Assembly: GCA_902761715.1 (NCBI GenBank) | Contig: CACWLK010000006.1 | Coordinates: 1 to 64,000 of the forward strand | Reading direction: 5' to 3' | Origin: an uncultured Rhodospirillales bacterium | GTDB lineage: Bacteria; Pseudomonadota; Alphaproteobacteria; RF32; CAG-239 | DNA length: 64,000 bases | Shown here: positions 12,842 through 15,341 of the stretch, in pieces | How the letters are laid out: each line of letters starts with the position of its first letter | How positions within the stretch are numbered: the stretch's first letter is position 1 | Translations under genes and position numbers: made by a program | Notes under the pieces: model-generated | The model's database searches: none | Seen by the model: only the letters and a program-made list of their open reading frames with translations | Told to the model about the DNA's origin: nothing

Positions 12842-12875
12842 GCAATTTCTTCACTCGCCACAATTTTATTTATAA

Positions 12876-14099
12876 TTATTTATTTTCAGCATGATAATCA
12901 ATATGACAATCTTTACACAACATAAGGCAGTTTTCAATCGTGGTTTCTCCACCATCAGCAAAAGCTTTTTTATGATGTCCATCAAGTTCTTTTAGCGGAA
13001 AAGGTTTGTGACATCTTGCACATCTTTTTCCTTGATTTTCATAAGCTTGCTTCTGTTGACGCTCGCTGAAAGCACGGTGCCAAATCAGTGTTCTGTCACC
13101 GGACAAACAATATTCGTAAAAACCTTTCTTTTTCAACCCATCGGGATCAACATCGAATAAATCATAAAGATATTTCAATTTTTCTTCTATTTCCGCTGGC
13201 TCAAAGTTTATATCATGGTATTTATTATATAAAAATCCCCAATCAAGCCCTTTCATGTCTGAACGATAGTTAATAAAAGTGTTTTTAACCCAATTAACCA
13301 CTTTTTGGAAATAATTAACAAGCTCGTCAGCATTCTTATCAAAACGATGTTTTCCCATATAGTCTTTTATTTGCGGATATTCTTCCATGTCAGCATCTAT
13401 ACGCCAGTTGAGTGCAAGCTCCAGCAACAGTTGGCGATTGGCTTTGTCTCCGAGACTTCCCATATCTCCCAAAACTTTATCAGCACTCAAATTCAGCAGA
13501 GTTTTTTTATTGTCGTTATCATAATAAGAAATATTTATGGCTTCATTATTATTTTTTTTAGAAAAGAATTGCTTGGCGGAAGTGAGCCATTGTCCTGTGT
13601 AATTGGCATTTAGAAGTTCTTGATTGGTCATTTGTTTGCCGGCAATGTTGATAGTATGAAACCAATCCAATTTTTCATCATCAGTACCTTCACAAACATA
13701 AATTTGCAACTTATAGTCCAAAATATCCTTTTGTTTTTGAAGCGATAAGCCCTCAAAAATTTGCGTATGCTTACCATTGAAATCAATAGCAATCGGGTTG
13801 CCAAAACCATCATCATTGGTAATAAACTGGCAAATTGAAATAATCCGTTGTTGTCCGTCTATCACTTCATAAGTGCCGTCAGGATTAATTGCCCAATACA
13901 TACTATTTAGAGGCATATTATTATAAACCGAAAGCATAACGCGGTCGCGGTCTTCCGGATTATAAACAAATGCACGCTGATACGCGGGGCGAACATTTAA
14001 TTTTCCACCAAAAGCAACCACGCCTTTTTCGCCATTGTCTTGATAGCCTTTTACTAAATCACGGATAGTAACCACCGGTTGTGAAGTTTTCATCGTCAT
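12876..14099 (-). CDS. DUF262 / HNH endonuclease (restriction-like)
   Basis: 407 aa. N-terminal DUF262 (GmrSD N-domain/ParB-like fold) shows RPAYQR near residue 38, a PLNSMYW strand and the signature IDGQQRIISI. The C-terminal HNH zinc nuclease (from about 360) has CARC, DGHHKKAFADGG, the Asn of ENC, and LCKDCH. In characterised systems DUF262 proteins sense or hydrolyse NTP and target DNA, often modified DNA. Starts 1 nt after the methyltransferase stop, so the pair is a coupled operon. The nuclease half of a restriction-modification or defence system is inferred. Confidence 0.85.
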   Translation of the reverse strand: MTMKTSQPVVTIRDLVKGYQDNGEKGVVAFGGKLNVRPAYQRAFVYNPEDRDRVMLSVYNNMPLNSMYWAINPDGTYEVIDGQQRIISICQFITNDDGFGNPIAIDFNGKHTQIFEGLSLQKQKDILDYKLQIYVCEGTDDEKLDWFHTINIAGKQMTNQELLNANYTGQWLTSAKQFFSKKNNNEAINISYYDNDNKKTLLNLSADKVLGDMGSLGDKANRQLLLELALNWRIDADMEEYPQIKDYMGKHRFDKNADELVNYFQKVVNWVKNTFINYRSDMKGLDWGFLYNKYHDINFEPAEIEEKLKYLYDLFDVDPDGLKKKGFYEYCLSGDRTLIWHRAFSERQQKQAYENQGKRCARCHKPFPLKELDGHHKKAFADGGETTIENCLMLCKDCHIDYHAENK

Positions 14100-14100
14100 G

Positions 14101-15051
14101 TTATGATTTCCTTTTGATTAAAATTCGCAGATATTTTGATTTGCCGTTAATTTCTGTTAAGTGAATATGATTCGCCTTTGCCCAATCATTAACTTTTGCA
14201 ACATCTAAAATTGTATAACGATTTAAGCCATCTATTATTTCAAATTGTTCTGGATTATATTTATCCATAAAAGTTATCGGTACACCCATCACACCATCAT
14301 AATCCATCGGAATATCACTGACTTTATCAACATTAATAGCATCATAGTTATCATAATGCGGATACATATTTTCATAACCATAAAATTTTTTGCCGGTACT
14401 AATGATTTCATTTCTTCGACTGTTCTCTAAATTTGTGTACCAACTAACATTACCAAAATTTTGAACTGAGCCATCAGGTTTGCAAAATTGTTTGACATGA
14501 TTTAAGCCACACCAGAATTTGTTTTCCTTAATGAGCGGAAAAATTTCTTTATAGGTGCGGCAATTATCATTCCCGATAATCAAGAATTTCTTTTTATACT
14601 CCATCAGTTGTGCAACATACTCGCGGAACAGCGAAAATGGCGGATTGGTAATCACTATATCTGCTTGTTTCAGGAGTTCTATACATTCGGGGCTGCGGAA
14701 ATCACCATCGCCTTTCATTGGAATTTCGGCAATATCTTCAAAACAAATAACACCATCGCCGGTGTTGTCCTTATCCAAGATATACATCGTTGAGTGGTCC
14801 TTATCTTTTTCATAATGAGTGGCAATCACTTTTTTGATTTGAAAAGCCTCAAAATTATCGGCCAGATATTTCAAAAAATTCGATTTCGGTGTTCCCAAAC
14901 CGATTCCGTTATGGTCATCACAGTTACAATAAATTATTTTGCCCTTAAAATATTTAGCATAATTAACTAATTCTTTTTTGATATCTTCATAGCCGGTATA
15001 AAATTCATCATCTTTGTTTCCATCTGCCGCACGTAAGCTCGCATTTCCCAC
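14101..15051 (-). CDS. EcoRI-family adenine-specific DNA methyltransferase
   Basis: The longer ATG frame (15087) would start inside a terminator stem. The GTG at 15051 has GGGAG 7 nt upstream and gives 316 aa. Recognisable blocks: DDEFYT (14-19), the SAM-side motif YCNCDDHN (41-48) and catalytic NPPF (136-139), followed by KKFLIIGNDN. This layout matches the EcoRI methylase family, N6-adenine methylation. The recognition site cannot be read from sequence. Partner of the downstream DUF262-HNH gene rather than of an EcoRI-type nuclease. Confidence 0.88.
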   Translation of the reverse strand: MGNASLRAADGNKDDEFYTGYEDIKKELVNYAKYFKGKIIYCNCDDHNGIGLGTPKSNFLKYLADNFEAFQIKKVIATHYEKDKDHSTMYILDKDNTGDGVICFEDIAEIPMKGDGDFRSPECIELLKQADIVITNPPFSLFREYVAQLMEYKKKFLIIGNDNCRTYKEIFPLIKENKFWCGLNHVKQFCKPDGSVQNFGNVSWYTNLENSRRNEIISTGKKFYGYENMYPHYDNYDAINVDKVSDIPMDYDGVMGVPITFMDKYNPEQFEIIDGLNRYTILDVAKVNDWAKANHIHLTEINGKSKYLRILIKRKS

Positions 15052-15066
15052 AGTCCATCTCCCAAC

Positions 15067-15094
15067 AAAAAATCGCCTTTGGTGCAAAAGGCGA
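15067..15094 (-). terminator. Intrinsic terminator 15 nt before the methyltransferase start
   Basis: A perfect 8-bp stem TCGCCTTT/AAAGGCGA with a 6-nt loop, followed on minus by six T. There is no room for a promoter between it and the GTG start at 15051, so methyltransferase transcripts must read through it. It probably acts as a regulated attenuator. Confidence 0.85.
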
Positions 15095-15276
15095 CTGGAA
15101 GCTGAAAACTACTCGTTGGGAATAGCGGGCATATTGATTTAAACAGGGTATAATAACCCCTATATAAACTTATTAGCCTCCTTCCAGTCGTGAGACCAGA
15201 AGGAGTTTTTACGCCAATGGTATTGGCAACCAACGATGAGGTTTTCAGTCCTCGGGGCAGACACCAACCTGCCTTG
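15067..15276 (-). ncRNA. Structured leader or small RNA before the methyltransferase operon
   Basis: About 210 nt in minus orientation. Hairpins: GGCAG/CTGCC (15256-15273), GCCAAT/ATTGGC with a 3-nt loop (15213-15227), a 12-bp stem with two G-U pairs and a 4-nt loop (15178-15205), GGGT/ACCC (15146-15159), then the terminator. The 18-nt block GTTTTCAGCTTCCAGTCG (15092-15109, read on minus) is exactly complementary to two earlier, separate segments: 8 nt at 15241-15248 and 10 nt at 15181-15190. The pairings cross, giving a pseudoknot or a switch with the 12-bp hairpin. Class unknown to me. Confidence 0.65.
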
Positions 15277-15282
15277 ACTATG

Positions 15283-15310
15283 AGGTTAAACGATAAGAAG
15301 TAAAAAGCAA
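15283..15310 (-). promoter_or_regulatory. Candidate promoter of the structured RNA/methyltransferase unit
   Basis: Minus-strand TTGCTT (15305-15310) and TAACCT (15283-15288), 16 bp apart. The expected start near 15276 falls immediately before the first hairpin. The -10 is imperfect but the same hexamer fits the pheA promoter here. Confidence 0.4.
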
Positions 15311-15341
15311 GTAAATTTTTATAAAACAACTTTCCTGCAAC

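Follow-up and report, generated by a model that had tools for sequence, protein, structure and literature searches.

A putative antisense-type attenuator leader related to sRNA-Xcc1 and phage C4 RNA precedes a predicted restriction-modification operon in an uncultured alphaproteobacterium

The antisense RNA C4 of phages P1 and P7 (RF01695, clan CL00128) lies upstream of its target, a phage antirepressor operon, on the same strand. RNase P excises C4 from a longer transcript, and the C4 loops a' and b' pair with the ribosome-binding site (PMC5320573). In the public record of phage P1 the annotated order is a1, b1, C4 RNA, a2, b2 and icd, where a1-b1 are decoys complementary to a'/b' and a2-b2 are the targets around the ribosome-binding site. 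Another RNA, sRNA-Xcc1 (RF02221), was mapped as an 88-nt RNA (PMC2996969) and was found upstream of symE in a survey of Xanthomonas integrons (PMC12444791). Rfam classes sRNA-Xcc1 as an sRNA gene and places RF02221 in no clan, with c4-2 in CL00128. The two families have been presented side by side without being linked (PMC12189769), and no report of an sRNA-Xcc1-C4 link was found in the open-access literature.

The stretch analyzed here (the window) comprises 64,000 nucleotides of one contig from an uncultured Rhodospirillales bacterium. On its minus strand, between mscL and the gene of an EcoRI-type methyltransferase, lies a leader RNA of ∼215 nt (15283-15067) whose nested fold, at -82 kcal/mol, is far stabler than those of shuffled sequences (z -6.0). 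An earlier note on this DNA had described an 18-nt segment with two crossing partners and a competing hairpin of 12 pairs, all of which are present on the minus strand. The segment GTTTTCAGCTTCCAGTCG (15109-15092) is the exact complement of CTGAAAAC plus CGACTGGAAG, its pairings with the two cross each other, and the 10-nt CGACTGGAAG also forms the 3' arm of the 12-pair hairpin H2, which includes two G-U pairs. The parts of the leader and the genes behind it are listed in Table 1.

Table 1. Predicted parts of the leader RNA and the gene pair downstream, in window coordinates
Feature	Position	Strand	Evidence
Promoter-like stretch TTGCTT-N16-TTTAAC, 5' of leader	15283..15310	-	Weak: no sigma-70 scan match in window
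P1, leader 5' hairpin	15255..15275	-	Fold; present with different sequence in relatives
a:a' hairpin (GAGG..CCTC), b in its loop	15238..15253	-	a:a' 96% paired, two-sided changes
Decoy b CTGAAAAC, a1-like segment	15248-15241	-	b:b' 99% paired, two-sided changes
Decoy c ATCGTTGG, b1-like segment	15230..15237	-	c:c' 94% paired, two-sided changes at all pairs
H1 hairpin	15212..15229	-	Fold; 74% paired in alignment
H2 hairpin d:e, alternative partner of e	15178..15205	-	Perfect 12-pair stem, -17.5 kcal/mol; conserved on MAFFT alignment
e CGACTGGAAG, first strand of C4-like domain	15181..15190	-	Pairs with d or e'
h hairpin	15109..15125	-	95-97% paired
c' CCCAACGA, in h loop	15120-15113	-	Partner of decoy c
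b' GTTTTCAG, a'-like segment	15102..15109	-	b:b' 99% paired; 6/6 pairs with two-sided changes
e' CTTCCAGTCG, closing strand, overlaps terminator foot	15092..15101	-	e:e' 98% paired
Intrinsic terminator	15067..15094	-	Terminator scan
Ribosome-binding site GTTGGGAG	15059..15066	-	Complementary to c' in window copy, 7-8 bp; weak
EcoRI-type adenine methyltransferase	14101..15051	-	PF13651 E 5e-107; PADLOC MTase_II E 2e-100
GmrSD_N(DUF262)-HNH protein, scored as type II restriction enzyme	12876..14099	-	Pfam; PADLOC REase_II E 2e-90

As judged by covariation, the pairings of the leader, crossing ones included, exceed what chance would give. In an alignment of 55 distinct sequences, for which some of the tested helices had been part of the covariance model, the full pseudoknotted fold was 94.7% paired as compared to 37-47% with partners slid by 1-3 columns, and its covariation score was 0.455 as compared to 0.05-0.09 slid and 0.18 shuffled. 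The unfitted helices e:e', a:a' and h were recounted on 121 distinct relatives and were 97.2% paired, as compared to 36-51% when slid. In this set the crossing helix e:e', left out of model building, was 98% paired, with two-sided changes in 7/9 pairs; comparative alignment thereby upheld the crossing pairs of the earlier note. The competing hairpin H2 was 95.7% paired in an independent plain MAFFT alignment (20-52% slid). Since H2 and e:e' are both kept, strand e has two conserved and mutually exclusive partners, d and e', as had been proposed from the window alone. The energies of the two helices are nearly equal (-17.5 kcal/mol for H2 and -15.8 kcal/mol for e:e'), and removal of its foot nearly abolishes the terminator (-11.7 to -1.9 kcal/mol).

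Between the end of the window terminator and the methyltransferase start at 15051 lie 15 nt, as the note had stated; a scan recovered the terminator, and the start, a GTG in the window, is backed by the close relatives L014 and L015, which have ATG in this position. The scan found no promoter between terminator and start codon, again as claimed. The promoter candidate upstream of the leader fared less evenly: the window copy does not pass a sigma-70 scan, but over all copies a promoter-like signal is enriched at this place (57% as compared to 21% in shuffles). A terminator follows e' in 77% of the copies from the window's family, with none recognized in the other 23%, and in 50% of other alphaproteobacterial copies, as compared to 4% in Gammaproteobacteria and 0-2% in shuffles. 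In 125/144 copies, a plausible start codon lies a short way downstream on the same strand.

Contact with the ribosome-binding site appears to be made at the junction of b' and e'. Among Alphaproteobacteria this junction matches the ribosome-binding site of its own locus over 5.65 nt as compared to 4.84 nt for swapped loci (p 0.0005), and the match stays when the two genomes with most copies are left out (p 0.0002). The anti-Shine-Dalgarno segment covaries with the downstream gene in four variants, e.g., AACTTCC/GGAAGTT and AACTCCC/GGGAGTT, and the same anti-Shine-Dalgarno and Shine-Dalgarno sequences are common to many family copies. In alphaproteobacterial copies, no other part of the RNA farther than 50 nt from its 3' end was complementary to the ribosome-binding site in a locus-specific way. 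In the window, c' could pair with GTTGGGAG over 7-8 bp; this weak match deserves little weight because it is lost in the closest relative, L014. A pair equivalent to a2/b2 is not clear in the window and is mostly missing from alphaproteobacterial copies. By this comparison, what sets the alphaproteobacterial form apart is the gain of a terminator and of an anti-Shine-Dalgarno segment, with a2/b2 mostly absent. The terminator before the gene and the covarying anti-Shine-Dalgarno support, at the level of sequence, the attenuator-like, gene-linked control that had been suggested. They also bear on whether the RNA is a small RNA gene of its own, unconnected with the operon behind it, which would use another promoter. 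Its unit of promoter, RNA and terminator is complete, and the Rfam class of sRNA-Xcc1 would suit such a gene; the closeness of same-strand start codons, the locus-specific matches to ribosome-binding sites and the short, apparently promoterless gap in the window all argue against it, making this explanation very improbable.

At gathering score the sole Rfam match in the window is a tRNA. RF02221 aligns with the leader over the full model length at 29.4 bits (E 0.0039 in a 501-base search), below its 53-bit gathering cut-off. This low score was first taken as chance, a view overturned by bridging sequences above the cut-off. Bridging sequence L158 scores 58.4 bits with R2, a covariance model tuned to alphaproteobacterial copies, and 56.2 bits with RF02221; L164 scores 51.7 bits with RF02221. 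The remote copies that R2 matches in GC-richer Alphaproteobacteria are recovered by RF02221 as well, and two gammaproteobacterial sRNA-Xcc1 leaders match R2 at full length (E 1e-8 and 1e-7). Through these bridging sequences, sequence comparison indicates that the alphaproteobacterial leader is homologous to sRNA-Xcc1. L158 also carries a second, diverged sRNA-Xcc1 match (1197-1280) on the opposite strand, ∼300 nt from the first. Across the phylum RF02221 has matches in 54/398 genomes, and it has none in 14 well-known control genomes. Both RNAs have an outer stem (e:e') and an inner stack of hairpins, followed by h, whose loop contains c', and then by b' and e'. They differ in that sRNA-Xcc1 has a tight tetraloop where the window loop is larger, and in that the 87-nt Rfam sRNA-Xcc1 covers the 3' half only, whereas the window-type leader is ∼120 nt longer and carries the decoys b and c.

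Reading of the gammaproteobacterial loci indicates that the sRNA-Xcc1 leader likewise extends further upstream than the mapped 88-nt RNA, with the same GGGG-b-CCCC-c arrangement outside the 87-nt model. Downstream of most, though not all, of these loci, second copies of b and c flank the Shine-Dalgarno. Complementarity within the own locus exceeds that of swapped loci both upstream (15.3 vs 10.6 nt) and at the ribosome-binding site (12.5 vs 9.5 nt), each with a permutation p of 5e-5, which is the floor of the swapped-locus test. About eight loci in L239-L268 (e.g., L241, L242, L253 and L265) have no second copy of b-c at the ribosome-binding site, and their targets may lie elsewhere. The genes behind gammaproteobacterial sRNA-Xcc1 encode antirepressor-type proteins (Bro-N, Rha, P22_AR_N and KilA-N) and SymE. 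A related spacer also joins these leaders to C4: the best match of their spacer profile in ∼115 kb falls in P1 between b1 and C4 (E 7.5e-4). The Rfam C4 model itself has no match in the window and none at sRNA-Xcc1 positions. In layout, as far as sequence comparison goes, the gammaproteobacterial sRNA-Xcc1 loci are arranged like the C4 antisense system of phage P1. The alternative offered by the earlier note, in which a small RNA has its promoter in common with the gene, is how C4-type systems are built.

Searching 90 related genomes with blastn found diverged leader copies before unrelated genes. A covariance model built from 14 of these diverged copies, R1, placed the leader in 29/33 sampled genomes of the window's family, usually with 1-10 copies per genome (a few of the single-copy matches being weak), four in the window's own genome and at least 50 in two others. 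R2 found it in 31/289 alphaproteobacterial genomes from 20 families, and on a phylum-wide sample its matches lie in Alphaproteobacteria alone because the model is tuned to them. The genes behind alphaproteobacterial copies mostly encode outer-membrane barrels, surface antigens, pilins and glycosyltransferases, with a few restriction or immunity genes. The two genomes with many copies, G028 and G004 (L129-L139), hold at least 50 leaders each in 1.6 Mb, and about half of the genes read behind the leader in the two encode Bundlin/PilS-like pilins. Leaders precede paralogous pilin-like genes in G028 and small secreted proteins in G004, where the pilin-like products are small and have signal peptides; these copies are a possible reservoir of surface variants. 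One further copy (L130, 7445-7584) lacks the closing strand e', the terminator and a nearby gene start, and is probably a broken leader.

Many copies before different genes, two exclusive folds with a terminator, and the unpaired stretches GTAAAA, AATAAG and CACTAT conserved among the copies would also suit a metabolite or ion riboswitch, in which these stretches form an aptamer and the ligand selects the fold. No metabolic theme or ligand hint was found among the genes behind alphaproteobacterial leaders, segments of the RNA match the ribosome-binding site of the gene behind it, and the RNAs most closely related to the leader are antisense RNAs from phage antirepressor operons. A metabolite riboswitch is thus not the best interpretation and appears improbable.

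The two genes behind the window leader, adjacent and on one strand, score as a predicted type II restriction-modification operon. mscL and rplK are neighbors ∼213 nt apart in two same-genus genomes, and the window has ∼2.47 kb more. The additional segment (12855-15330), consisting of the RNA and both restriction-modification genes, interrupts a nusG-mscL-rplK cluster, and the site between mscL and rplK is empty in same-genus G008 (L272) and G012 (L273). No target-site duplication is evident at 12855-15330. The best reading of these alignments is that the RNA and the restriction-modification genes were inserted together between mscL and rplK. A leader with a related methyltransferase (81-85% identical) occurs in two other genomes. 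Across related methyltransferase loci, some of them cut short upstream, these two close relatives are the only carriers (2/82), and the RNA precedes many other genes; the idea that the element belongs to methyltransferase/DUF262-HNH operons was therefore rejected. In same-genus L002 (1501-1758) an RNA 89% identical to that of the window stands before a different gene of no known family, for which no Pfam or PADLOC match was found. Its product begins MGNENLRNA, resembling GNASLRAA of the window methyltransferase. These loci and L002 together indicate that RNA and gene travel together yet can be re-paired. Overall, what the earlier note observed was confirmed, and what it made of the observation was partly supported.

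We consider it probable that the leader is an antisense leader of the sRNA-Xcc1/C4 type, derived from a phage-like control unit and converted into an attenuator of the downstream gene. With e held in H2, e' would be free, so that the terminator could form and/or e' could mask the ribosome-binding site, and the gene would be off. Closing of the C4-like fold (e:e', P5, b:b' and c:c') would dismantle the terminator foot, free the ribosome-binding site and turn the gene on. The closed domain may also be excised by RNase P, as is C4, and act in trans on sister copies. We infer this direction of switching, its on and off states and the trans action of the processed RNA from the likeness to C4 and from the way e' overlaps both the terminator and the ribosome-binding site. 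The window copy of the unit would gate the restriction-modification cassette inserted along with it.

A rival account, unlikely in our estimate, keeps the RNA closer to classical C4. After termination of the leader, the e..e' domain would be released by RNase P and would repress, in trans, its own and sister ribosome-binding sites, so that copies may cross-regulate. RNase P cutting in C4 (PMC5320573) and the 88-nt size of sRNA-Xcc1 despite a leader that continues upstream (PMC2996969) agree with such processing, as does an RCY motif 3' of e' in 113/137 copies, and the anti-Shine-Dalgarno and Shine-Dalgarno sequences shared by many family copies would permit cross-talk. Against it, the segment that matches the ribosome-binding site in Alphaproteobacteria is the start of e', which would be paired in the freed domain, and a2/b2 are scarce there. 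For the attenuator reading, a broader and more tentative extension is that a phage immunity antisense system of the C4/sRNA-Xcc1 type has been domesticated into a genome-wide regulon, in which dozens of paralogous leaders with their own decoy codes and a shared anti-Shine-Dalgarno attenuate surface antigens, pilins, sugar transferases and restriction genes, possibly with cross-talk in trans that limits expression to some of the variants at a time.

If the attenuator reading holds, sRNA-Xcc1, so far seen as a trans-acting small RNA of plant pathogens and integrons, would make up the 3' half of a C4-type leader that extends further upstream, and C4-type control would reach bacterial genes far from phage immunity, in some genomes with at least 50 copies. 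With a corrected, full-length RF02221-type model, the annotation of many loci would change. The control of surface variation in uncultured gut Alphaproteobacteria would become testable, as would the way in which a mobile restriction-modification cassette may be kept in check on arrival.

Among described systems, the C4-like group 1 sRNAs of Acinetobacter baumannii (PMC5320573) likewise comprise many phage-derived C4-type copies in one genome with inferred processing from longer transcripts; unlike the present leaders, they match the C4 model and are not described as terminator-bearing leaders of surface genes. The window leader resembles C4 itself in lying upstream of its putative target gene on the same strand, in having b:b' and c:c' as counterparts of the a1-b1 decoys, and in the order c', b', which corresponds to b' in a hairpin loop of C4 and a' just before its closing strand. 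The a2-b2 targets around the ribosome-binding site have their match in most gammaproteobacterial sRNA-Xcc1 loci, whereas Alphaproteobacteria use the b'/e' junction as anti-Shine-Dalgarno and the window has only the weak match of c'. An antirepressor operon as target is likewise true of gammaproteobacterial sRNA-Xcc1, which precedes antirepressor genes or symE, but not of the alphaproteobacterial copies or of the window, where a restriction-modification operon follows. The main departures from C4 are a terminator after the domain of the leader and a contact with the ribosome-binding site that has moved to e'. On the attenuator reading, the type II restriction-modification pair in the window would be governed by an antisense-type leader instead of a controller protein.
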